The position numbers and the translations under genes are program-made. A model generated the notes under the pieces. That model saw only the letters and a program-made list of their open reading frames with translations. It was not told the origin of the DNA and ran no database searches. Shown here one piece after another: positions 41,844-59,822 of a DNA stretch of 64,000 nucleotides (the stretch's first letter is position 1; each line of letters begins with the position of its first letter). Source of the DNA: Candidatus Aphodousia faecipullorum. GTDB lineage: Bacteria; Pseudomonadota; Gammaproteobacteria; Burkholderiales; Burkholderiaceae_F. Location of the stretch: positions 1-64,000 of the forward strand of contig DVNR01000062.1 of NCBI GenBank assembly GCA_018714205.1, in the 5' to 3' direction.

Positions 41844-43757
41844 ATGCGGCGATTTTTAATTACTGTGGTAGCGGTGATGGTGGTGATGTTTTCCGCCATG
41901 GGGGTGGAGTCACTGATCATGGGCGATCATCACTCCATCTTGCGTCAAACGCTATCCAGTCCGGTTAAACGTTTGATTGATTTACCGAGAAGCAACCCCA
42001 ATCAAGTGGTGGTTGGAATTGACGATCAGGCCGATCCGTATCTGTTGCGCGAACATGTCTCCAAAACATTGGACGCCATTGACAAAAAGGCTCGCGAAGC
42101 CAATCGATTTCTTGTGATTAAAATTTTGGATCGTGAATCCATCGCAACGAGCCTCAGGGAACATCAAATTGATTTTTTAATCAGTGACTCTGATTTTTTC
42201 GCTGAGTTAGCTTTTAGTGATCAAATCAAACCGATCGCCATGCTTTGGCGTCCACAAGCCCGTTCGCCGTCGCACTCAAGCGCAAGCACAATTGTCGTGC
42301 GAAAAACCGATACATCGATTTACACGTTGGCCGATTTAGTCGAGGGACGTTTCAAGGTGATCGCCACCTCGCCCTACTCCTTTGCCGGTTATCAATTGGC
42401 TCGTGATCCTTTTGTAAAAATGAATTATGCGTGGCAGCAGGCCTTCAAGAATTTGAGTTTTACGGCCGAAGGCGATCCTTTGGATGTTTTGCATGCTGTG
42501 AAGTACGGCACAGCCGATGTGGGGATAGTGCCTGCCTGTTATCTGGAATCGGCTATGAGCCGAAACTTGGCGCATTTAAGTGACTACCGAATCATCAATC
42601 CTCAGCCCACCGCTGACTTGGCCTGTCAACATTCCACGGACACTTTTCCGGGAATCATGGTTTCTTATCGCAACGGCGTGGACTCCAATGACATTTTGGA
42701 CATGACCAACACGCTTCTTGGAATGAAGCTCGACGGGGGAAGCACTTGGAGTCTGCCAGAAAATACGCGAGAGCTTTATGACGTGTTGTATCGTCTTCGT
42801 TTGGGACCATACAACAACATCACCTACTCAACGATCTACCGCATATTGAGCGAAAATCGGATGATTTTCATCGCGGCGATCTTCCTTTTGGTCGCAGGCT
42901 TTTTCTATAACCTCATCATTTCCGTTGAAGTGGCTTCTCGCACCAAAGCGTTGAAGCGAGCGCTTGCAGAAACCGAACGGATTTCCAAGCAGCAAGAGCA
43001 ATCGAATGAATACATCTCCCGTTTGGAGCGAACCGGCATTGTCGGGCAGATGTCGAGCATGATCGCGCACGAGTTAAAGCAACCCCTTGCCACGGTCGCG
43101 AACTACTCCCGCGGGCTTTTGCGTCGCATCGATAAAGGAACCGCCGATAAAGAGACCATCGTCAAAATCCTGAAGGAAATTGAATATCACACCAATCGGG
43201 CAAGCGAAATTGTCGATCACGTCCGAAGCTACGCCAAAGCGCATGATATCAAGCGGGAAAAGCATGACCTTCGTGTCATTGCTGAAAACACCATCGCCAC
43301 GTTTGAGAAGTCCGGTCGGACGCAAGTGCCGGTGCGACTGGAGGGGGTGAGATCTGCCTGGGTCGAGGCCGATGACTGGGAAGTGGAACTCGCGCTTTTA
43401 AATCTTTTGAAAAACTCCGCCGACGCTTTCGCCGAAGTTCATCCAGTCCGTTTCGGCGAGGGTGGTCAATGTATCCGCATTCGTATTGAGGATCATGAGG
43501 ACACATGGTGGATTCGAGTGATAGATAATGCCAAATCCGTCACAAAAGAATTCACTGACCAATTCTTTCACAAGCTTGAAACCACAAAGGCTCAGGGCTT
43601 GGGTCTGGGATTGTCTATTGTCAGTTCCCTCGCTGAGCGTCACGCCGGGCGCGTTTGGGCTGAACCGAATGAGGTGAGGGGAGTGATCGTCACAATGGAA
43701 TTGCCGAAATACCACGATCCGGATGAGACTGAGGAAAGTCAGAACTCAACGAATTGA
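41844..43757 (+). CDS. Sensor histidine kinase with periplasmic PhnD-like binding domain
   Basis: ORF 637 aa; periplasmic phosphonate-binding-like domain, TM, H-box MSSMIAHELKQPLATVANYSRGLLRR, N-box LLNLLKNSADA, GLGLGLSIV. Confidence 0.9.
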   Translation: MRRFLITVVAVMVVMFSAMGVESLIMGDHHSILRQTLSSPVKRLIDLPRSNPNQVVVGIDDQADPYLLREHVSKTLDAIDKKAREANRFLVIKILDRESIATSLREHQIDFLISDSDFFAELAFSDQIKPIAMLWRPQARSPSHSSASTIVVRKTDTSIYTLADLVEGRFKVIATSPYSFAGYQLARDPFVKMNYAWQQAFKNLSFTAEGDPLDVLHAVKYGTADVGIVPACYLESAMSRNLAHLSDYRIINPQPTADLACQHSTDTFPGIMVSYRNGVDSNDILDMTNTLLGMKLDGGSTWSLPENTRELYDVLYRLRLGPYNNITYSTIYRILSENRMIFIAAIFLLVAGFFYNLIISVEVASRTKALKRALAETERISKQQEQSNEYISRLERTGIVGQMSSMIAHELKQPLATVANYSRGLLRRIDKGTADKETIVKILKEIEYHTNRASEIVDHVRSYAKAHDIKREKHDLRVIAENTIATFEKSGRTQVPVRLEGVRSAWVEADDWEVELALLNLLKNSADAFAEVHPVRFGEGGQCIRIRIEDHEDTWWIRVIDNAKSVTKEFTDQFFHKLETTKAQGLGLGLSIVSSLAERHAGRVWAEPNEVRGVIVTMELPKYHDPDETEESQNSTN

Positions 43758-47033: not shown

Positions 47034-48425
47034 GTGAGTGTGAGTGTTTTTGATATCTTTCGCGTGGGGATCGGACCGTCATCGTCTCACACGGTCGGTC
47101 CCATGCGCGCTGCCTATCGTTTCAGCAAAGAACTTTGTGAAAAAGGGCTGGACCGACAGACCGCTCGGTTATGGGTTGATTTAATGGGAAGCCTGGGCGC
47201 CACCGGCATCGGTCACGGCACTGACACGGCTTTTCAGATCGGATTGACTGGCGTGCTGCCTGCCACCATTAATTTGGATGAGGCGCCGAAAGTCCTCGAA
47301 GATATCAAAACGCGTCATAAACTGCGCTTGCCCAGCGGACGAGAAATTGATTTCGATCCAGCGCGCGACGTTATTTTATCGCCCGAAAAAATCGCGATTT
47401 ATCACACCAACGCTATCCATGTCATCGCTCAAGATGAAAATGGCGAAATTCTCTTGGCCCGACGGTACTATTCGATCGGTGGCGGCTTCATTGTTGAATC
47501 CGATCCTGATAACTTTGACAAGGTCACCGAAGACAAAGAAACTTTGCACAAAACGCCTCAGCCGTATCCGGTTGACAGCGCGGCAGACCTCTTGCGCTGG
47601 TGCCATGAAACCGGTCTGAGCATTCCTGAAGTTGTGCGTGCAAACGAACGCGCTTGGAAAACCGATGAGCAAATTGACCGAGAGTTAGATTACATCTGGC
47701 AGATGATGAAGGACTGTGTCTCGCGTGGACTCAAAGCGGAAGGGGTGATGCCCGGGCCGCTCAAAGTCAAACGCCGCGCCAAACAGATGTATGAGCATTT
47801 GGACTTCTCGCATCGCACTTTGAATGACCCATTGGCTGTATTGGATTGGGTCAACGCCTTCGCTTTTGCCGCCAGTGAGCAAAATGCCTGCGGCGGTCAG
47901 GTGGTGACCGCTCCAACAAACGGCGCTGCGGGCGTCATTCCCGCTGTCTTGCACTATTACATGAAGTTTATTGACAATGCCGACATTCATGGCGTTCGAG
48001 ACTTTTTGTTGACGGCTGGCCAGATTGGCGCGCTTTATAAGGAAAACGCCTCTATTTCAGGTGCCGAAGTCGGCTGCCAGGGAGAAGTCGGGGTTGCTTG
48101 CTCAATGGCTTCAGGCGCTCTTGCGCAAATTCTGGGCGCCACTCCTGAACAGGTCGAGAACGCCGCTGAAATTGGAATGGAACATCACCTAGGCATGACG
48201 TGCGACCCAGTGGCCGGTCAAGTCCAGATTCCCTGCATTGAACGCAACGCAGTTGCGGCTGTGAAAGCCATTAATTCGGCTCGCCTGGCTTTGATGGGAG
48301 ACGGCCATCACTACGTATCCTTGGATCAAGTGATTGTTACTATGTACAAAACCGGTCTCGATTTGCAATCCAAATATAAGGAAACCAGTCAAGGCGGATT
48401 AGCGGTCAGCGTTGTTGAATGCTAG
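47034..48425 (+). CDS. sdaA: L-serine ammonia-lyase
   Basis: ORF 463 aa; GIGPSSSHTVGPMRAA, VTAPTNGAAGVIPAVLHYY, EVGCQGEVGVACSMA. Confidence 0.97.
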   Translation: MSVSVFDIFRVGIGPSSSHTVGPMRAAYRFSKELCEKGLDRQTARLWVDLMGSLGATGIGHGTDTAFQIGLTGVLPATINLDEAPKVLEDIKTRHKLRLPSGREIDFDPARDVILSPEKIAIYHTNAIHVIAQDENGEILLARRYYSIGGGFIVESDPDNFDKVTEDKETLHKTPQPYPVDSAADLLRWCHETGLSIPEVVRANERAWKTDEQIDRELDYIWQMMKDCVSRGLKAEGVMPGPLKVKRRAKQMYEHLDFSHRTLNDPLAVLDWVNAFAFAASEQNACGGQVVTAPTNGAAGVIPAVLHYYMKFIDNADIHGVRDFLLTAGQIGALYKENASISGAEVGCQGEVGVACSMASGALAQILGATPEQVENAAEIGMEHHLGMTCDPVAGQVQIPCIERNAVAAVKAINSARLALMGDGHHYVSLDQVIVTMYKTGLDLQSKYKETSQGGLAVSVVEC

Positions 48426-48531: not shown

Positions 48532-50712
48532 TTACTTAGCGCTCATTTCGACGGTCACGACATCTCCATCGACAGTGACTTTCGCATCTGCGAATTGTTT
48601 CGTGTCGTAGGCGACCTTTAACTGTTCGAGACCGCTCACTTTATCAACAGAGAAGCTCACCTTGGAGGCTTTGACACCCGTGACATCAAGCGTTGCGGGG
48701 CCTTCGACCGTCAGAGCCTTCATGGAAACGCCGTCATCGGCCAGAGCCAACACCGCGCCGGTCTTTAGCACCACTTGTGCGTCGTCACGAGCCTTGTCAG
48801 TTCCTACGGACACCGTTGTGACCGGCTTATCGGCACCGGCCTTCGTCACGTCAAATTGCTTGTGCAATTGAAGCGTCGCGCCTTGATTGACGACAACAGG
48901 CGCCGTGCCAAACGACTCGGTCAAACCGGCCAAAGTGCCGCCGACCACTTCCGTGCCGCCTGTGTAGGTGTTCACAGCGGTCATCGTCAAGTCACCGTCG
49001 CCGCGCTTGACCAGCTTGCCAACCCAACCTTGGGCTTTGCGTTCTTGCATCGACGCCAAGCGTTTTTCTTTGTACTCAAGCTCCCAGCCTTCTTGATCGG
49101 TGAGCTTGTCTTTCGCTTTGAGTTCACCAATTCGCTTGGTCAAAGCTTTCATTTGCTTGCGATCTTCCTTGCCGCGAGCCTGAATGGCTTCATCGGAAAT
49201 GGCGTTATGCCAAGTGTCGTCACCTTTGACAGACACATCAAACGTGCCAACGAACTGACCGGGACCGTAAACGGCTTTGCCTAGATCGATCACGCCCCAG
49301 CCGTAATCTTCATCGGGCACCTTCGGATCAAGCTTGTCGCCGTCACTGCCGCGAAGGGCCTTGCCGGCACCGTTATCCGTGCGATTGGCCGTCGTAAAGA
49401 GAACATCGCGGATTTGCGTGGGCGTCATGTAAGCGTAGCGTTGCATCAAGACAGCCATGGAGCCTGCGATGTGCGGCGCGGCATTTGACGTGCCACCGGC
49501 TTGACGGTTGCCAATCTTTCCGGTGACTGGGTCAACGGAAGCGTTCCAAGCGTCAGTCGGGGAGGTAACGGTCCACCACTTGGCGATACCGGCATGGTTG
49601 TGACCACCGGAACCCCAGGAATCATCATCCTTCGTGTTCACATCACCGTAAATGATGTAGGAGCCGTCTTCAGCGTTGCGTTGAACGGAGCCTGCGGCAA
49701 TCCAGAATTTTTCAGCTTCCGGATTGTAGAACGGGTAGGCCGCGCGATAGTACGGGTTTTGGAAACGACGGTTGCCGTTTGTGAAGATTTGGATGATGTT
49801 GTATTTTTCAGCGACTTCATAGGCGGCGTCCATGAAGTTCTTGCCACCATTTTTCTTGGCGTCAGCCTTGAAGAGATAGTATTCGGAGACGGAATTCGTG
49901 GTCGGGAAATCTTTGCGTTGCTTGTTGTCGGCAACTTCTTCGCCTTCCGTGCCGATTTGACCGACATCATAGTGGTGCGCGGTATCCAGAATACGAACGT
50001 TCGTGCCCCAGGAGTTATTGATCAACTTGGCGCCTGTTTTAGCAGTGGCTTCCCAAACCGCCTTGAAGTAGCCATAGTCCTGGAAGGGCCCGTAGTTCAT
50101 ATTGTCGTTGCCGCCGGTGTTGCCAACAGCCACTTTAGCCGCCCAAGCCACGCCGTGCGCTTCATAGCCATTGCGGTTGCCCGCGGCGACGCCCGTCACG
50201 TGAGTGCCGTGAGCGTCATTGTGACCCATGATGAAGTTGCCGCTCACTTTGAATTTTTCACCCTTTTCATAAGAGCCGAAACGATTGTCAGCTTGACCGG
50301 TTTGTCCGAGGTAGGCAAACGGGTAACGGGTGCCGTCCTTGCTGTAGACGCCCGAAGCGGTCACCGGAAAGATTCGACCGCCCTTTAAGTCCGGATGAGT
50401 CAATAGCGCTCCGGAATCAACAACGCCAATCAAAACGCCCTTGCCGTTGAATCCTTCCGCATAGGCGGTGGAGGCGTTGATATAAGCTAAGCCGTGATCC
50501 TTTTGATATTCAGCCGATTCCCAGGAAGCCGTGCTGCCTAATTCGCCTTTTTCCACATAGGCGGCAGTTGCAACTCCTGAAAAAAGAGCCGCTGCGACAA
50601 TGGTTAGTGCAACGGCTGATTTAGTGGGTTTCGCATGCGTCTTTTGCGCTTCATTGGTCACAATATAAGCGCGACGGGCTTCATTCCAGATAGTCTTAAA
50701 GGCGCGATTCAT
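48532..50712 (-). CDS. Secreted subtilisin-like S8 serine protease with ESPR signal and autotransporter-type beta-strand repeat, no beta-barrel
   Basis: ATG at 50712: MNRAFKTIWNEARRAYIVTNEAQKTHAKPTKS; catalytic regions GVVDSGALLTHPDL (D), DAHGTHVTGVAAGN (H), GGTSNAAPHIAGSMAV (S); LTMTAVNTYTGGTEVVGGTLAG repeat; ends DGDVVTVEMSAK*. Confidence 0.9.
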   Translation of the reverse strand: MNRAFKTIWNEARRAYIVTNEAQKTHAKPTKSAVALTIVAAALFSGVATAAYVEKGELGSTASWESAEYQKDHGLAYINASTAYAEGFNGKGVLIGVVDSGALLTHPDLKGGRIFPVTASGVYSKDGTRYPFAYLGQTGQADNRFGSYEKGEKFKVSGNFIMGHNDAHGTHVTGVAAGNRNGYEAHGVAWAAKVAVGNTGGNDNMNYGPFQDYGYFKAVWEATAKTGAKLINNSWGTNVRILDTAHHYDVGQIGTEGEEVADNKQRKDFPTTNSVSEYYLFKADAKKNGGKNFMDAAYEVAEKYNIIQIFTNGNRRFQNPYYRAAYPFYNPEAEKFWIAAGSVQRNAEDGSYIIYGDVNTKDDDSWGSGGHNHAGIAKWWTVTSPTDAWNASVDPVTGKIGNRQAGGTSNAAPHIAGSMAVLMQRYAYMTPTQIRDVLFTTANRTDNGAGKALRGSDGDKLDPKVPDEDYGWGVIDLGKAVYGPGQFVGTFDVSVKGDDTWHNAISDEAIQARGKEDRKQMKALTKRIGELKAKDKLTDQEGWELEYKEKRLASMQERKAQGWVGKLVKRGDGDLTMTAVNTYTGGTEVVGGTLAGLTESFGTAPVVVNQGATLQLHKQFDVTKAGADKPVTTVSVGTDKARDDAQVVLKTGAVLALADDGVSMKALTVEGPATLDVTGVKASKVSFSVDKVSGLEQLKVAYDTKQFADAKVTVDGDVVTVEMSAK

Positions 50713-50831
50713 AGTCATGCAGCGCCGTTTTCGCAACGACGCCATCTCCTTTCAGTGGATAAATTAAAAGATGAGTTTCAGAAACATCAACTCAAAACAT
50801 TCAGCAGACAGCGACAAACCGCCTACCAAAC

Positions 50832-52435: not shown

Positions 52436-52641
52436 CCTGATAAATTAATTCTGCGTTCATTGTACTCGGAGCGAAAGGACTGCGCACAGATTCTCCTCAA
52501 GAAATGTCCTTTAGCCTCTTTTTGTCATGAAACAATTGAGAAAATCCCCCTTTCTTTTAACGCCTTTGAATTCGCGTTTTATATAGAAAAATTTATCCTA
52601 TAATAGAATTATTTATTGAAATAAACAATTTTTTTTCTATA

Positions 52642-53322
52642 ATGAAACGAGCTTATAACGATTTCCAAAAGGCTATGCATCCGCTTTTATCTCGCTATAT
52701 CCCGATCGCCGATTTGATCGTAAAAACCTTTGGCGATGATGTGGAGGTTGTCCTTCACGATTTGAGGCATCCGCAAAATTCGGTCGTTTATGTCGCTAAC
52801 AGCCGCGTCACCGGCCGAGTGATCGGAGAGAGTTTCCAACACCTGATTGCTAAGGCGCTTGAAGCGCAAAAAGCCGATGAGGGCATTCTTGCAAATTATT
52901 ACTTTGAGCAAAATGGACGAAAAATCCGCTCATCAACACTTTTTATCAGAACTGATGAGGGCGACTTGATCGGAGCGCTTTGCATCAACATCGACACAAC
53001 GCGGGTGATGTCTCAACTTCAGTGGCTTCAAACCCTGTTGCCGGGCTTGAGTTTGACTTTAGAGCCTCAATCAACGCCACCTCATGGCGCTGACAGCAAA
53101 GAGGACAGTGATATTTTGCAGACTGTCAACGCGTTGATTGACCGAATTCTGGAAGAAAATCCCAATCCGAAAAATCGAGATGAAAGGCTTCAACTCATTC
53201 GCTTTATGGAGTCAAGGGGCGTCTTTCTGGTCAAAGGCGCAATGGATCGTGTTGCCGAAAAGCTCAAAATGTCCAAAGTGACGCTATATGCGGATTTGGA
53301 TGAAGTTCGCAAAACACAATAA
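52642..53322 (+). CDS. YheO/DauR-like PAS-HTH transcriptional regulator
   Basis: ORF 226 aa; VVLHDLRHPQNSVVYVANSRVTGRVIG, C-terminal GAMDRVAEKLKMSKVTLYADLDEVR. Confidence 0.85.
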   Translation: MKRAYNDFQKAMHPLLSRYIPIADLIVKTFGDDVEVVLHDLRHPQNSVVYVANSRVTGRVIGESFQHLIAKALEAQKADEGILANYYFEQNGRKIRSSTLFIRTDEGDLIGALCINIDTTRVMSQLQWLQTLLPGLSLTLEPQSTPPHGADSKEDSDILQTVNALIDRILEENPNPKNRDERLQLIRFMESRGVFLVKGAMDRVAEKLKMSKVTLYADLDEVRKTQ

Positions 53323-53353
53323 TGTCGAGATCACTATATGGAGAAGTTAGGTT

Positions 53354-53737
53354 ATGAAAATCATCGATCCGAAATTCAAGGGCGTTAACCCGGGTCACTA
53401 TAGCGCCGGGGTCATATCAAAAGGGATGCTGTACGTTTCCGGTCAATTGTCGATTGATCCCGACACGAGGCAGGTTTGTCAAGGCGACATTAAAGACCAC
53501 ACGCGTTTAGCGCTCAATAACGTGGATCGGGTGCTCAAAGCGGCCGGTGTAGCCCGCGAGCAAGTGGTCTTTTGTCGCGTCTACACCCCGGCGGTCGAGT
53601 ATTGGGGGCCGATCAATGAAGTCTATGCGGAATTTTTCGGCGATCATAAGCCGGGTCGGGTAGTAGTTTCCACAACCGATCTTCATTTCGGCTGCCTAGT
53701 TGAAATCGAAGCCATCGCTGAAGTCAAGGAGGAGTGA
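53354..53737 (+). CDS. RidA family enamine/imine deaminase
   Basis: ORF 127 aa; GHYSAGVISKGMLYVSGQLSIDPDT...CRVYTPAVEYWGPINEVYAEFFGDHKPGR. Confidence 0.88.
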   Translation: MKIIDPKFKGVNPGHYSAGVISKGMLYVSGQLSIDPDTRQVCQGDIKDHTRLALNNVDRVLKAAGVAREQVVFCRVYTPAVEYWGPINEVYAEFFGDHKPGRVVVSTTDLHFGCLVEIEAIAEVKEE

Positions 53738-53739
53738 GC

Positions 53740-54846
53740 ATGAGTCAATTGCAATACGTGTGCACCCGCTGCGGGAAGAAAGTGGGGGTGGACACCCATC
53801 AACCGCGCTGCGAATGCGGCGGACTTTTTGAATTGGATTTTAAGGCACCGGCCTGGGACGAGAAACTTATCGATCGCAACGAGTGGAGCCAATTCCGATA
53901 TCGCGCATTCATGGCGATGGACGATGATCAAACCTGGCGTTCAGTGACCATGGGCGAAGGCATGACCCCAATCATTCAGTTTGATAAAAACGTTCTTTTC
54001 AAGATGGATTACACCATGCCGACCTTGTCTTTCAAAGATCGGGGAGCCGCCACATTGGTGAGCCACTGTAAAGCCATTGGTGTGAAGCGTTGTGTCCAGG
54101 ACTCGAGTGGTAACGCAGGCAATAGCGTTGCAGCCTACAGCGCCCGAGCCGGCATCGAGTGTGAAATTTTTGTTCCGGAAGGCACCAGTCCCAAAAAAAT
54201 CACCATGATTGAGTCCCATGGGGCCAAAGTTCATGTCATCCCCGGAACGCGTGACCATTGCGCTGATGTCTGTCGGGCCAAGGTTCGAGATGAAGGCGTC
54301 TTTTATGCCAACCATGTGTTCAACCCGTTCTTTTATGAAGGCATGAAGGCCTACATTTACGAGACCTTCGAGCAGCTGCATAGGATTCCGGCCAATATCG
54401 TGGTGCCTGTTGGTAACGGCACGCTCTTTATCGGTGTCGTCAAGGCGCTTGAACACTTGCTTGAGAGCGGCGCTATTGACGCCTTCCCCAATATCATCGC
54501 GTTGCAAAGCGAGCTCGTCGATCCACTTTATTTGGCAAAGATGCAGGGCTTGCGCAAACCCGTCAAAATTGACGTGAAACCGACGATTGCCGAAGGCATC
54601 GCAATCGGCGAACCCATGCGCGGTGAGGAAATCCTTGACATGATCTACCGCCATGACATCAAAGTGGTGACGGCACCAGAGGATAAAATTCTTCAAGCCC
54701 GCCACGAGATTGCCAAGCGGGGCATTTACTGTGAACATACCACGGCGGCAAATTACGCCGCGTATTTGCATTACTGTGAACTCTACGGGGAAACGCCCGA
54801 CACGCTCATCACGATGTGTGGAGCCGGCATTAAATCCGATCACTGA
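53740..54846 (+). CDS. Threonine-synthase-like PLP-dependent (fold type II) enzyme
   Basis: ORF 370 aa (ATG 53740 behind AGGAGG); zinc-ribbon-like N-terminus CTRCGKK..CECGG, SFKDRGAATLVSHC (PLP lysine), DSSGNAGNSVAAY. Confidence 0.85.
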   Translation: MSQLQYVCTRCGKKVGVDTHQPRCECGGLFELDFKAPAWDEKLIDRNEWSQFRYRAFMAMDDDQTWRSVTMGEGMTPIIQFDKNVLFKMDYTMPTLSFKDRGAATLVSHCKAIGVKRCVQDSSGNAGNSVAAYSARAGIECEIFVPEGTSPKKITMIESHGAKVHVIPGTRDHCADVCRAKVRDEGVFYANHVFNPFFYEGMKAYIYETFEQLHRIPANIVVPVGNGTLFIGVVKALEHLLESGAIDAFPNIIALQSELVDPLYLAKMQGLRKPVKIDVKPTIAEGIAIGEPMRGEEILDMIYRHDIKVVTAPEDKILQARHEIAKRGIYCEHTTAANYAAYLHYCELYGETPDTLITMCGAGIKSDH

Positions 54847-54953
54847 GTTCTCATCGGCTCGGGTGGGGTCGAATCACTGTTTTTACCCTACCCGTTATAG
54901 AGGAAAAATAAGGCAACTTCATTACAATAAGCGCAATTATCTAGACCGGTCGG

Positions 54954-54979
54954 GAAGTCGATCGCCATTGCTCGACTTC
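54954..54979. promoter_or_regulatory. 8-bp perfect inverted repeat upstream of the oxidoreductase/hydrogenase genes
   Basis: GAAGTCGA-N10-TCGACTTC, about 85-110 bp before the ATG at 55063. Confidence 0.4.
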
Positions 54980-55062
54980 GATCTGTGTGATGTACTCACG
55001 GCGAAAACGGGGTGAATGGGAGATTGAGCCCTTGTTTTTGCCCGATTAAACGAGAGTTTCGT

Positions 55063-57069
55063 ATGAACCCCTTAATTTACGGCTTTTGGGACGGTGTGTT
55101 TTATGACAACCGCCAAACGTTTTCGCCGACGGCGCCCGAAGATCTGCCGCTGGATCAGTTTTCTCAGTTCAACCCCGGCAATCCCATTATGACTTTCGTG
55201 GGAGACAAGGGCTTTTTGGTGTTGGATCGTCGCGCCGATTTAGCTTTTGCCTTGTGGCGTTATTATCAACGCGCGGCCAAAGAGTCTTGCGGGAAATGCA
55301 CCCCATGCCGCACAGGATCGTTAATCATCGCCGAAGCGCTGGAAAAAGCGGTGAAAGGTCACGCGGCCGATGTCGATTGGGATTTTGTCGAGTCCGTCGC
55401 AACGCAGATGAAAGAAACCAGTCTTTGCGGCATCGGTCTGACGACACCCACGGCTTTTTTAGCCGCCCTGCATTACTGTCCGAATGAAATTCGCCATGCG
55501 CAGGCCACTCCCGAAGCGCTCTACGACTACTATTCTTTGCTGACAGCGCCCTGTGTTGAAGCTTGTCCGGCTCACGTTGACATTCCTCGCTACATTGATT
55601 ACATCAAAGCCGGAGAGCCGGAGCTTTCCGCTGCGGTTTTGTTGAAACACTATCCACTGGTTGGCAGTTGCGGTAGGGTTTGTGTGCGCTATTGTGAGAA
55701 GGCCTGTCGGCGTCGCTTCTTGGATGAGCCGGTTGACATTAAGAACCTCAAACGTTATGCGGCCGACGCCACCGGTCCCATGCAACCGCTTTTTCACAAC
55801 TCCCGCTTGGAAACTCATCCCCTGAGCCCCAAAGTGGCGGTGATCGGCGCTGGGCCTGCCGGCATCAATTGCGCTTATCACTTGTTGTTGCAGGGTTATG
55901 AAGTCGATATTTTCGAAGCTAACAGCCATGCGGGCGGCATGGCTCAAGTGGGCATCCCCCAATATCGCTTGCCGAAAGGTCTTTTGGAAAGCGAAACGGA
56001 AGTGATCACGGAGCTCGGCGGTCGATATTTTTACCGCCAACGTTTAGGCTACGATTTTTCGCTCTCGGATCTTTTTAAACGAGGCTATAACGCGATCTTT
56101 ATCGGGGTGGGTTGCTCAAAAGGAATGTACCTTGGCTTAGATAACGAGGACACGACCCTTTCGGGCTACTTTAACGGAATTGACTTTTTGCATAAAGTGG
56201 AGCGCTCTGTCGCTGGCACGAAACCGATGAAACTCAAGGGCGATGTCGTGGTTGTCGGCGGCGGCAACGTCGCCATGGACTGTGCGCGCTCCGCCGTGCG
56301 AATGACCGATGGCACAGTGCACGTCATTTACCGTCGCACCGAGGAGGGAATGCCTGCAGATCATGAGGAAGTGCTCGCGGCCAAAGCCGAAGGAATTCAA
56401 TTTCATTTCCTCTCGGTTCAGAAAGAGATCTTAAGCGAAAACGGAAAGGTGACCGGTCTGAAGATCGCCAAAATGCGTGAAGAAAAAGTGCCGGGAGCAA
56501 AACGAGGCAAACTCATTGAAATTGAAGGGACTGACACCGTGATCGGCTGCGACACGCTCATTGCGGCTATCGGTCAACGCTTGGACCAACAAGTGCTCTG
56601 CGATGACGACGGGATCATGTTTGATCGTCGGGGCAACATTCAAGTGTCTGAAGCCTTGGCAACCACCCGACCGGGCGTTTTTGCCGGCGGGGACTCCGCC
56701 ACCGGACCGACCACCTTGATCGACGGAATGGCACAAGGACAGATCGCGGCTCAATCAATCCACGAGTATCTCACCCGAGGCTCAGTGGGTTTTGTGGCCA
56801 GACGCCGTATGAGCGAGTTATTGAAACGCGCTCATATTCTCGATGAGAAAAAACCGACGATTGATCTATGCACGATGCCTCGTCACCAATTAAAAACTTT
56901 AAGCGTTGAGCAACGTCGCGGCAACTTTGAAGAGGTTGACCTGTCGATGACCGGCGATGAAGCCATTCGTGAAGCAAATCGTTGCATGCGCTGCTACCGC
57001 ATTTACGCAGTCACGACTCAGCTTCCGATACCGGGCAACCTCACTCACACTCAGAATCAGGCTGTTTAA
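55063..57069 (+). CDS. Flavin/Fe-S oxidoreductase: NuoF C-terminal 4Fe-4S module fused to GltD-like NAD(P)H oxidoreductase
   Basis: ESCGKCTPCRTGSLIIAEAL (NuoF-type cluster) followed by GltD-like PCVEACPAHVDIPRYIDYI...GSCGRVCVRYCEKACRR..VAVIGAGPAGINCAYHLL...VVVVGGGNVAMDCARSA. Confidence 0.88.
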   Translation: MNPLIYGFWDGVFYDNRQTFSPTAPEDLPLDQFSQFNPGNPIMTFVGDKGFLVLDRRADLAFALWRYYQRAAKESCGKCTPCRTGSLIIAEALEKAVKGHAADVDWDFVESVATQMKETSLCGIGLTTPTAFLAALHYCPNEIRHAQATPEALYDYYSLLTAPCVEACPAHVDIPRYIDYIKAGEPELSAAVLLKHYPLVGSCGRVCVRYCEKACRRRFLDEPVDIKNLKRYAADATGPMQPLFHNSRLETHPLSPKVAVIGAGPAGINCAYHLLLQGYEVDIFEANSHAGGMAQVGIPQYRLPKGLLESETEVITELGGRYFYRQRLGYDFSLSDLFKRGYNAIFIGVGCSKGMYLGLDNEDTTLSGYFNGIDFLHKVERSVAGTKPMKLKGDVVVVGGGNVAMDCARSAVRMTDGTVHVIYRRTEEGMPADHEEVLAAKAEGIQFHFLSVQKEILSENGKVTGLKIAKMREEKVPGAKRGKLIEIEGTDTVIGCDTLIAAIGQRLDQQVLCDDDGIMFDRRGNIQVSEALATTRPGVFAGGDSATGPTTLIDGMAQGQIAAQSIHEYLTRGSVGFVARRRMSELLKRAHILDEKKPTIDLCTMPRHQLKTLSVEQRRGNFEEVDLSMTGDEAIREANRCMRCYRIYAVTTQLPIPGNLTHTQNQAV

Positions 57070-57081
57070 AGGAGAGACTCC

Positions 57082-58935
57082 ATGTCGATTAATCATTTCG
57101 CCAGCATTAACGGTCATCGGGTCTCTTTTGATGAGGGGCAAACGATTCTTGAAGTGGCTAAAAAGGAAGGAATTTTCATTCCAACATTGTGCGCCTACAT
57201 GCCGCTGAACCACACGCCGGGAACGTGTCGGATGTGTTTGGTTGAGGTCTTCGATGAAGCGTATGAAACCGGACGCATTGTGACAGCATGCACAACGCCC
57301 ATCAAAAACGGGCAACGCATCTTCACTCGTAATGAGCGCGTTCGCAAGATGCAGCAGTTGCAGATGGCGCTTTTATTTGCCGACCATGATCAGGACTGCA
57401 AAAGTTGCTCTCGTCACGGCGACTGTGAACTTCAGGACGTCTCACTATTTATCGGCATGAAACATTGGCCGATGAAAGAAAACTTTATCGCGCCGCGCCC
57501 TTACGATGATTCTTCCGCCGGCATTGTCCGCGATGTCAATAAGTGCATCCGATGCGGTCGTTGTGTTGAGGTTTGCCGTCAGGTTCAGGGAATCGGCGCT
57601 CTCACCATTGACGAGTTTGGCACTCGCGCCGGCGTTGCCATGACCGGTGCCAAGCGCTGGGCAGATTCCGCCAAATGCGTTCAATGTGGGCAATGCACGC
57701 TCGTTTGCCCAACAGGCGCGTTAAGCGAAAAAGATGAGACCGACCGCGTCCTTAACATGATTGACGATCCGTCGATCACAACGGTCGTGCAAATGGCTCC
57801 CGCCGTGCGTGTGACGCTCGGAGAAGAGTTTGGTGTCGCTCCGGGAGAAAATATTGAAGGCAAAATCATCTATGCCCTCAAACACATTGGCGTGGACTAC
57901 GTCATGGACACCAATTTTGCCGCCGACATGGTCATCATGGAAGAGGGAACGGAACTGCTCGAGCGGCTTAAGGCTCGACGGGCGGGAAACGCTGTCGCAT
58001 TGCCGATGTTCACGTCCTGCTGTCCGGGATGGGTCAATTACGTTGAAAAGCACGTGCCGATGGTCATGGACTACTTGTCGTCGACTCGGTCACCTCAAGC
58101 GGTGTTCGGCGCTTTGGCAAAAGCCTATTTGCCCCAAACGCTTGATGTTAAGAAGGAAAACCTTCGAGTCATCTCCATCATGCCTTGCACGGCTAAAAAA
58201 GGGGAGGCCTTAAGGCCAACCTTGGCTCGCGAAGATATGAGCCGGGATGTCGACGCTGTTTTGACCGTCCGCGAATTAGCCAAACTGATGCGCCGCTGCG
58301 GCATGCATTTGAAATTCTGCGAAGAAGCCAGCTACGATAATGACTTGTTTGCAAGCTATTCCGGGGCCGGCGCGATTTTCGGAACAACAGGCGGCGTCAT
58401 GGAAGCCGCGGTTCGCACCGCCTTTGCCTTAACCCATGAGGGTCAGTCACTCGATCCGATTGTTTATGAACCGGTTCGTGGCATTGAAGGTGTCAAGGAA
58501 GCGACGGTTGACTTAGGCGAGCTTGGCAATGTCCGAATCGCGGTCGTTCACGGTTTAGCACGGACTCAGACGCTTCTTGACCGCATGAGTCGGGGAGAGG
58601 TCATGTATGACTTTGTGGAAGTCATGGCGTGTCCCGGAGGTTGCGTCGCCGGCGGTGGAACGCCCCGAAAGAAGAATAATTATCAACCGTTCTTGAAAGA
58701 GCGTCAAAATGCGCTATACCGCATTGATGCTGAGTCGGTCATTCGCGAGTCTCACAAAAATCCGCAAGTTATCGCGATGTACTCGGACCACTTGGGTCAA
58801 CCCGGCAGCCACATCGCGCATGAATTGCTTCATTGCGAGTACCGATCCAAGAAGGTGGACCGTGAGGCGCCCGATGTGCGCAAACTGTGGCAGAAACTGA
58901 GCAATCGTTACACACCGCTAAACAAAAAGCGGTAA
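57082..58935 (+). CDS. hydA: [FeFe]-hydrogenase catalytic subunit
   Basis: ORF 617 aa; N-terminal 2Fe-2S, HDQDCKSCSRHGDCELQ, CIRCGRCVEVC and CVQCGQCTLVCPTGA; H-cluster motifs PMFTSCCPGW, MPCTAKKGE, EVMACPGGCVAGGG; C-terminal YSDHLGQPGSHIAHELLH. Confidence 0.96.
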   Translation: MSINHFASINGHRVSFDEGQTILEVAKKEGIFIPTLCAYMPLNHTPGTCRMCLVEVFDEAYETGRIVTACTTPIKNGQRIFTRNERVRKMQQLQMALLFADHDQDCKSCSRHGDCELQDVSLFIGMKHWPMKENFIAPRPYDDSSAGIVRDVNKCIRCGRCVEVCRQVQGIGALTIDEFGTRAGVAMTGAKRWADSAKCVQCGQCTLVCPTGALSEKDETDRVLNMIDDPSITTVVQMAPAVRVTLGEEFGVAPGENIEGKIIYALKHIGVDYVMDTNFAADMVIMEEGTELLERLKARRAGNAVALPMFTSCCPGWVNYVEKHVPMVMDYLSSTRSPQAVFGALAKAYLPQTLDVKKENLRVISIMPCTAKKGEALRPTLAREDMSRDVDAVLTVRELAKLMRRCGMHLKFCEEASYDNDLFASYSGAGAIFGTTGGVMEAAVRTAFALTHEGQSLDPIVYEPVRGIEGVKEATVDLGELGNVRIAVVHGLARTQTLLDRMSRGEVMYDFVEVMACPGGCVAGGGTPRKKNNYQPFLKERQNALYRIDAESVIRESHKNPQVIAMYSDHLGQPGSHIAHELLHCEYRSKKVDREAPDVRKLWQKLSNRYTPLNKKR

Positions 58936-58949
58936 AATCCGCAGTTGAC

Positions 58950-59078
58950 TCAGGGCGGGGTGAAAGTCCCCACCGGTGGTTACAGTCCACGAGCGTGCGG
59001 CGGTTTTCTATCTGTCGCAGTCAGCAGATCCGGTGTGATTCCGGAACCGACGGTGACAGTCCGGAAGAAAGAGTGAAC
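58950..59078 (+). ncRNA. FMN riboswitch (RFN element)
   Basis: AGGGCGGGGTGAAAGTCCCCACCGGTGGTTACAGTCCACGAGC...GTCAGCAGATCCGGTGTGATTCCGGAACCGACGGTGACAGTCCGGAAGAAAGAG; precedes ribB. Confidence 0.97.
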
Positions 59079-59168
59079 CTTTCCAACAGGCACAAGCGTT
59101 TGACTGACGCTTGTGCTGTCCCTGATGCAATTAATCCTGAAATTCTTATTTTATGAAAGGCGTTATCC

Positions 59169-59822
59169 ATGCATCAGTCTGAAAACCTTTTAAACCGTTA
59201 CGGTCAAAACGCAATCGATCGCGTTGAGCGCGCGCTCAATGATTTACGAGCCGGCAAAGGCGTCATGGTTGTTGACGATGAAGACCGTGAAAACGAAGGT
59301 GACTTGATTTATTCGACCGATTTCTTGACGGTGCCGCAAATGGCCTTGATGATTCGAGCCTGCTCGGGCATCGTTTGCGTGTGCTTGCGTGACGAGGATT
59401 GTGAACGATTACAGTTGCCGCAAATGGTCGCGCACAACACCAACACACAGGGAACGGCCTTTACCGTCTCCATTGAGGCGGCGCACGGCTGCACAACAGG
59501 CGTTAGCGCCCATGACCGCGTCACCACGATCAAGGCGGCAGCCAATCCGAACGGTAAGCCGGAAGATCTGTTGCGCCCCGGTCATGTCTACCCGCTTCGC
59601 GCTCGTCAAGGCGGAGTTTTAGAGCGTCGCGGTCATACCGAGGCAACGGTTGACCTCATGCGATTGGCCGGCCTGAACCCTGCAGGCGTCTTGTGCGAGC
59701 TAATGAATGAAGACGGCACCATGGCAAAGCTGCCTCAAGTTTGTGATTTTGCCGATCTTCACGGCCTGACCGTTTTGTCAGTGGAAGACATCGCCGAATA
59801 CCGCTTGGCAAATGCCTGTTAA
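59169..59822 (+). CDS. ribB: 3,4-dihydroxy-2-butanone-4-phosphate synthase
   Basis: ORF 217 aa; [43 protein letters not shown]. Confidence 0.96.

Follow-up and report, generated by a model that had tools for sequence, protein, structure and literature searches.

Why should an [FeFe]-hydrogenase be encoded beside genes that look like a module for amino-acid breakdown? The question is raised by positions 52642 to 58935 of a 64,000-nucleotide stretch of Candidatus Aphodousia faecipullorum (assembly GCA_018714205.1, contig DVNR01000062.1, positions 1 to 64,000 of the forward strand), hereafter the window, whose genome is labelled G000 among the relatives compared. Five consecutive genes encode a YheO-like regulator, a RidA-family protein, a pyridoxal phosphate (PLP) enzyme, a GltD-type protein and the hydrogenase catalytic subunit HydA. 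A sequence-only reading of this locus had proposed that amino-acid breakdown is coupled to the disposal of reducing power as H2, under the control of the YheO-like sensor. We describe the locus as two modules, yheO-ridA-PLP and gltD-hydA, in which known parts form a new and recurrent combination. The hydrogenase pair and the dehydratase genes probably work together, and we tentatively favour H2 uptake over H2 disposal.

Linkage of the two modules in the Sutterella family

Our survey covered 67 genomes of the family, with genes in the relatives called by a codon-scored gene caller and a weak GltD-only match in G072 left out of the counts. Both modules are encoded in 41 of the 67 genomes and neither in 24, while one genome has the PLP gene alone and another the gltD-hydA pair alone. 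The neighbourhood comparison across the family, for which the sequence-only reading had expected the pairs to occur together, thus found them co-occurring and adjoining in several orders. Co-occurrence tracks gut lineages and is weak evidence by itself; adjacency is the stronger.

The PLP gene lies within 5 kb of gltD-hydA in 11 of 42 copies of the pair, and it does so in three gene orders. Six same-genus genomes carry yheO, the PLP gene, gltD and hydA in this succession on one strand, with or without ridA between yheO and the PLP gene; the contig of G003 ends at the PLP gene. Three Sutterella genomes show gltD-hydA divergent from a yheO-ridA-PLP operon, and two further genomes have yheO divergent from a run of gltD, hydA, a malate dehydrogenase gene (mdh), ridA and the PLP gene, where the last two overlap by 4 nucleotides (nt). 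The succession yheO-ridA-PLP recurs as an operon in relatives, and two more gltD-hydA copies are accompanied by a divergent yheO only. In the GltD tree the window clade joins genera without linkage (98% support) and is separate from the Sutterella clade. Since these two clades stand apart, the linkage arose at least twice independently, and the chance of finding the modules within 6 kb of each other is about 0.5% per genome.

Within the genus of the window, G001 and G005 have thyA adjoining gltD and no cassette. The trees of PLP and YheO hint that this genus acquired the cassette on two occasions, a scenario that we set aside, as an approximately unbiased (AU) test leaves a single origin unrejected (p 0.155, 0.082). 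As a separate observation, in G007, another genome of this genus, a divergent yheO accompanies a second set of gltD, hydA and mdh that is of Sutterella type (L050:1276-5082, contig C38), which suggests that the whole set was transferred. In G020 (Turicimonas; L048:995-5335), a fumarase/tartrate-dehydratase-like pair, an MmgE/PrpD-like gene and a transporter-like gene, all named by eye, lie divergent from gltD-hydA.

The hydrogenase pair and the direction of electron flow

HydA exceeds the TIGR02512 cut-off (476.8 vs 405.95 bits), which places it among the group A catalytic subunits. Profile searches detect a 2Fe-2S domain, a NuoG-type 4Fe-4S domain, two ferredoxin clusters and the large and small H domains, and the ligands of the 2Fe-2S, His/Cys 4Fe-4S, two ferredoxin-type and H-clusters are invariant in an alignment of 12 homologues. 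The window genome has genes for the maturases HydE, HydF and HydG, with a HydF match that is without the first 76 positions. Two more [FeFe]-hydrogenase-like genes are present in G000 (C34:5864-7177 and C37:128769-129863, in open frames of 724 and 485 amino acids), so that the window enzyme is one of three.

The partner protein had been read as a NuoF/GltD fusion. The GltD fusion holds, whereas NuoF is represented by its C-terminal 4Fe-4S domain only: the NuoF model covers just residues 44-143 (49 bits vs cut-off 559), the FMN domain of NuoF or FMN-NADH domain of NuoF/HydB was not found in the partner, and no NuoE/HydC gene was found among the five genes or their flanks. The NuoF-type cluster ligands C76, C79, C82 and C122 are invariant in 13 sequences, as are the cysteines C164, C168, C203, C207, C211, C215, C641 and C644 of the GltD part. 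All GltD-family scores of the partner remain below the curated cut-offs (PRK12771 403.9, PRK12814 363, gltA 306 bits), and the nearest solved relatives of its GltD module are NfnABC and StnC. The structure model of the partner is moderate (pLDDT 78, pTM 0.67) and served for fold assignment only.

By domain content, although not by the literal HydDB rule, the pair appears to correspond to HydDB group A2 (glutamate synthase-linked, putative), which is listed with an 'undetermined role' and likewise comprises a group A catalytic subunit adjoining a GltD-domain protein and no full NuoF (PMC5037454). The rule places the GltD gene immediately downstream, whereas here and in every relative of the same type examined gltD stands immediately 5' of hydA, an order kept so consistently that the pairing goes beyond chance. 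Further differences from A2 are the N-terminal NuoF-type 4Fe-4S domain of the partner and its linkage to the YheO/RidA/PLP module. In Stn (StnABC) and NfnABC, a GltD-like FAD module is wired to NuoG-like and NuoF-type clusters as it is here (PDB 8oh5, 9bov, 9n5u; PMC10482914), but the output of the present pair is an [FeFe] H-cluster and the FMN bifurcating core (StnAB/HydBC) is absent. StnC relays NADPH electrons to the bifurcating core of StnABC while itself being non-bifurcating, and its K170 is strictly conserved at a position where bifurcating NfnB has Glu (PMC10482914). Partner K230, invariant in 13 sequences, aligns with this lysine at the proximal cluster, and because it matches StnC K170 and not the NfnB Glu, we infer that GltD-HydA is a non-bifurcating NAD(P)H-H2 enzyme. 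The likeness to StnC and NfnB, together with an invariant YRR (423-425), would point to NADPH rather than NADH as the nucleotide. The bifurcating HydABC enzymes of group A3 (PDB 8a6t, 7q4v, 7p5h) share the HydA architecture and cluster set; unlike in these, the HydB FMN domain and HydC are missing here and a GltD module stands in their place.

In our best explanation, the PLP enzyme would strip a beta-hydroxy amino acid, at best guess an isomer of 3-hydroxyaspartate, of water and ammonia, and RidA would hydrolyse the released imine or enamine to a 2-oxo acid, most plausibly oxaloacetate. GltD-HydA, as a cytoplasmic, non-bifurcating [FeFe]-hydrogenase of HydDB A2 type, would pass electrons along a chain that links H2 at its H-cluster with FAD-NAD(P)H by way of the NuoG-like HydA clusters, the NuoF-type cluster and those of GltD, mainly taking up H2 and yielding NAD(P)H. 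Malate dehydrogenase would then use NAD(P)H to reduce oxaloacetate to malate, and onward to fumarate and succinate. Substrate, nucleotide and electron direction are presumed in this scheme. Uptake is favoured because the dehydratases would make oxo-acids that consume reductant and because malate dehydrogenase follows hydA: its gene (PRK05442, 502 bits, cut-off 271) lies directly after hydA, at 25-146 nt, in seven loci. Taken as a whole, with H2 uptake, oxaloacetate reduction and autoregulation of the yheO-ridA-PLP operon by YheO as its joint elements, we advance this explanation tentatively and rate its probability somewhat short of even.

The reverse direction, in which the hydrogenase evolves H2 and thereby disposes of reducing power from amino-acid breakdown, would be served by the same gene linkage. 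[FeFe]-hydrogenases often evolve H2, and the nearest named NCBIfam model is that of the A6 NADH-dependent [FeFe]-hydrogenase, which HydA matches with 688 bits, below the curated cut-off of 765. Yet dehydratase and RidA release no electrons and so give no reductant, and malate dehydrogenase, whose gene recurs as the third member, uses up NAD(P)H when it reduces oxaloacetate. Furthermore, a non-bifurcating NAD(P)H-linked enzyme cannot form H2 from NAD(P)H unless the H2 pressure is very low. The link to amino-acid breakdown claimed by the sequence-only reading is thus retained, on the strength of co-occurrence, adjacency and at least two independent origins, whereas its H2 disposal part is not supported and one that we consider unlikely, even if it survives better than the other alternatives discussed below.

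A bolder extension of the H2-uptake explanation is that the A2-type hydrogenases of gut Sutterellaceae are NADP(H)-linked, non-bifurcating uptake enzymes, recruited through YheO to reduce oxaloacetate from the deamination of hydroxyaspartate-type amino acids, and this we regard as doubtful. If true, it would provide a role for a hydrogenase group listed without one and show that common gut bacteria have an amino-acid metabolism that depends on hydrogen. The recurrent partners, namely YheO, RidA, the PLP dehydratase, a hydroxyaspartate dehydratase homologue and malate dehydrogenase, form a specific and testable context for group A2. They suggest that in Sutterellaceae, frequent inhabitants of animal guts, H2 is coupled to the metabolism of amino acids and C4-dicarboxylates; the gut would thereby gain a further hydrogen-consuming route. 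Of the papers found that mention both Sutterella and [FeFe]-hydrogenase, none deals with this locus as far as titles and abstracts show.

YheO, its putative operator and transcription in the window

Most of 24 loci have a palindrome-like motif, TATATAAAAAATTCTATA, upstream of yheO. When 11 Sutterella genomes were scanned with the pattern TAKAAAAAWTTYTA, allowing one mismatch, 21 of 56 matches, including seven of the eight perfect ones, fell into the one intergenic region that adjoins yheO; matches in the background occur as often as those of a reversed-pattern control. Opposite yheO across the site region lie gltD-hydA(-mdh) in six genomes, the hydroxyaspartate dehydratase homologue in four and ridA-PLP in one. 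In G007, one site stands 5' of ridA-PLP, with no yheO within the 192 nt to the contig end, and another precedes the second gltD-hydA-mdh set, where yheO is present. YheO may bind at these sites. Owing to the high AT content of the region, the matches upstream of the window yheO, with scores of 16.2 bits and of 12.6 bits (1 of 100 shuffles as good), are weaker than those in GC-rich relatives. The proposal that both pairs are under the YheO-like sensor therefore fares unevenly: in Sutterella, the yheO gene and the putative operator sit between the two pairs, whereas the window gltD has no operator before it. An operator common to YheO and GltD everywhere was rejected, GltD having a site only where YheO is its divergent neighbour. 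The sole perfect site outside the yheO regions (L217:4251-4264; G017:C1:47250) lies about 150 nt 5' of a class I fumarate hydratase/tartrate dehydratase-like pair; this pair was dismissed as a further YheO target, as the site occurs in none of 18 relatives and was treated as chance.

The combination of a YheO-like repressor with a RidA-family gene is also known from CfiR-CfiP of Campylobacter jejuni (Cj1387c-Cj1388), and such pairing has been reported across bacteria (PMC4519771). CfiR-CfiP is tied to flagellar interaction phenotypes, and the reported pair comes without a PLP enzyme or hydrogenase (PMC4519771). Our literature search for YheO together with RidA found no joint account.

In the spacer between the PLP gene and gltD, a stretch of 86 nt has a folding energy of -22.9 kcal/mol (z -2.0), and hairpins occur at the same position in five relatives (z -1.4 to -5.9). 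Given this hairpin after the PLP stop and the lack of an operator before gltD, the window modules look like separate transcription units, and common control would need read-through; coordinated expression in the window genome is presumed. In L031, L032, L033 and L034, an AAGGAG-like block precedes the gltD start by 40-55 nt, and a hairpin lies between the block and the ATG. A structured leader spanning this interval in relatives was considered and dropped, as the folds are not clearly beyond shuffles.

Several observations weigh against the cooperation of the two modules in H2 uptake. The direction of electron flow is not readable from sequence, and the malate dehydrogenase adjacency is confined to one GltD clade and absent from the window locus. 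As the PLP gene is not nearby in 31 of the 42 GltD-HydA copies, the hydrogenase also works without the PLP module in its vicinity. The link between YheO and the site is positional only, and the operator was found neither upstream of the window gltD (-2.4 bits) nor upstream of unlinked gltD genes. RidA is absent from the cassettes of L031, L032 and L033 (G008, G002 and G004) and probably L034 (G003); in the RidA-less same-genus cassettes the PLP gene directly follows yheO at 13-17 nt. Finally, the best structural matches of the PLP enzyme (model pLDDT 90) are threonine synthases.

Part of this evidence would suit two unrelated operons that became chance neighbours in the genus of the window: most hydrogenase copies are unlinked (31/42), the PLP gene is followed by a hairpin, no operator precedes the window gltD, and in the loci examined outside the family, neither a YheO nor a PLP homologue was found near GltD-HydA. 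Chance neighbours are hard to reconcile with codirectional, divergent and downstream linkage orders recurring in two separate GltD clades, with YheO and its clustered site lying between the pairs in Sutterella, and with the low chance of such proximity per genome. We therefore judge this explanation improbable, and cooperation of the hydrogenase pair with the dehydratase genes remains our preferred reading.

The PLP enzyme, remaining alternatives and gene layout

For the dehydratase role assumed in this preferred reading, the identity of the PLP enzyme is central. Its scores are below all NCBIfam thrC cut-offs (TIGR00260 127.9 vs 167.1; PRK06450 265 vs 301). T88, S155 and R160 of Thermus thermophilus ThrC, which we take to be ligands of the O-phosphohomoserine phosphate, align with A126, H192 and F198 of the PLP enzyme, and these replacements are invariant across 18 PLP homologues. 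Moreover, the PLP gene is kept in G002 (98% complete), G001, G005 and G007, where homoserine dehydrogenase was not found. Because the phosphate residues are lost, the thrC cut-offs are not reached and the gene persists without homoserine dehydrogenase, the protein is probably a beta-hydroxy-amino-acid dehydratase and not a threonine synthase. Serine does not seem an obvious substrate, since a separate Fe-S L-serine ammonia-lyase is encoded at 47034-48425 (sda_mono 650 bits), a gene that relatives keep a few kb upstream. RidA scores above the PF01042 cut-off (98 vs 27.3 bits) and below that of the TIGR00004 subfamily (95.7 vs 106.25 bits).

If the PLP gene nevertheless encoded the cell's threonine synthase, the first module would be biosynthetic. 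The best profiles and folds are indeed those of threonine synthases, canonical thrC was not found in eight of nine same-genus genomes, and homoserine dehydrogenase is present in G000 and four other genomes. Apart from the lost phosphate contacts, the missed cut-offs and the genomes without detected homoserine dehydrogenase, this assignment conflicts with the PLP gene adjoining a canonical thrC in G001, with the failure to find a thrB of the tested type and with the RidA and YheO partners, which suit catabolism; we give it little credence.

The gene c8 is a further neighbour in relatives and is closest to the D-threo-3-hydroxyaspartate dehydratase of Delftia sp. HT23 (PDB 3wqc, 361 bits). It is found near the PLP gene in three genera and ends the hydrogenase operon in G017, and likewise, by coordinates, in G086. 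A c8 homologue with 57% identity is unlinked in the window genome (G000:C73:2238-3350). The 3wqc enzyme has an alanine-racemase fold, whereas the window PLP enzyme is of fold-type II and linked to c8 only in relatives.

That the hydrogenase makes reductant for glutamate synthase, as HydDB proposes for A2 (PMC5037454) and as the GltD homology of the partner might suggest, is very unlikely, given that no large-subunit gene was noticed by the pair in the mapped neighbourhoods, where some neighbours lack identification, and that the GltD part is nearer to the electron-input modules of StnC/NfnABC than to the small subunit of glutamate synthase.

Features of the locus in window coordinates
Feature	Position	Strand or site	Evidence
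yheO-like regulator (PAS_6 + HTH_22)	52642..53322	+	Pfam PF08348 115 bits, PF13309 56 bits
RidA/Rid-family imine-enamine deaminase homologue	53354..53737	+	PF01042 98 bits; TIGR00004 95.7 bits
Fold-type II PLP enzyme (PALP) with N-terminal 4-Cys zinc-ribbon-like segment; predicted beta-hydroxy-amino-acid dehydratase	53740..54846	+	PF00291 227 bits
Hydrogenase partner: NuoF C-terminal 4Fe-4S domain fused to GltD/StnC-like FAD-NAD(P)H module	55063..57069	+	PF10589 (NADH_4Fe-4S), PF14691 (Fer4_20), PF07992 (Pyr_redox_2)
[FeFe]-hydrogenase catalytic subunit HydA	57082..58935	+	TIGR02512 476.8 bits; PF02906, PF02256
Operator-like AT-rich sites 5' of yheO	52582..52619	TATAGAAAAATTTATC 52582-52597; reverse-strand TCAATAAATAATTCTATTAT 52600-52619	Family-motif matches
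Hairpin directly after PLP stop, terminator-like stem without T-run	54860..54894	+	Folding of 86-nt stretch

The open reading frame list, the sequence and the profile searches agree with the sequence-only reading on the five consecutive genes and their coordinates, and the gaps between them are, in order, 31, 2, 216 and 12 nt. The last value is the spacing already given for the GltD-like and hydrogenase genes, while the distance between the two pairs, taken before as 217 bp, is 216 nt (54847-55062). An overlap of ridA and the PLP gene around 53734-53740 is not required, as it arises only with a GTG start at 53734. The AAGGAGG at 53726-53732 is ideally spaced for, and so favours, the PLP ATG at 53740, 2 nt past the RidA stop. 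For YheO, a promoter match (TTGAAA-16-TATAAT) overlaps the annotated ATG at 52642 and the alignment of several relatives begins only around residue 12-19, so the true start is possibly Met12 (52675).

Downstream of the locus, an FMN riboswitch (58942-59080; Rfam RF00050, 102 bits) begins 6 nt after the hydA stop and precedes ribB (59169-59822); four relatives of the same genus share the hydA-ribB spacing of 221-234 nt. Upstream, the window encodes a subtilisin-like autotransporter serine protease at 48532-50745 (EprS model 300 bits, far below the cut-off of 1700) and, at 41844-43757, a histidine kinase that is closest to the tetrathionate sensor TtrS (163 bits, cut-off 750).

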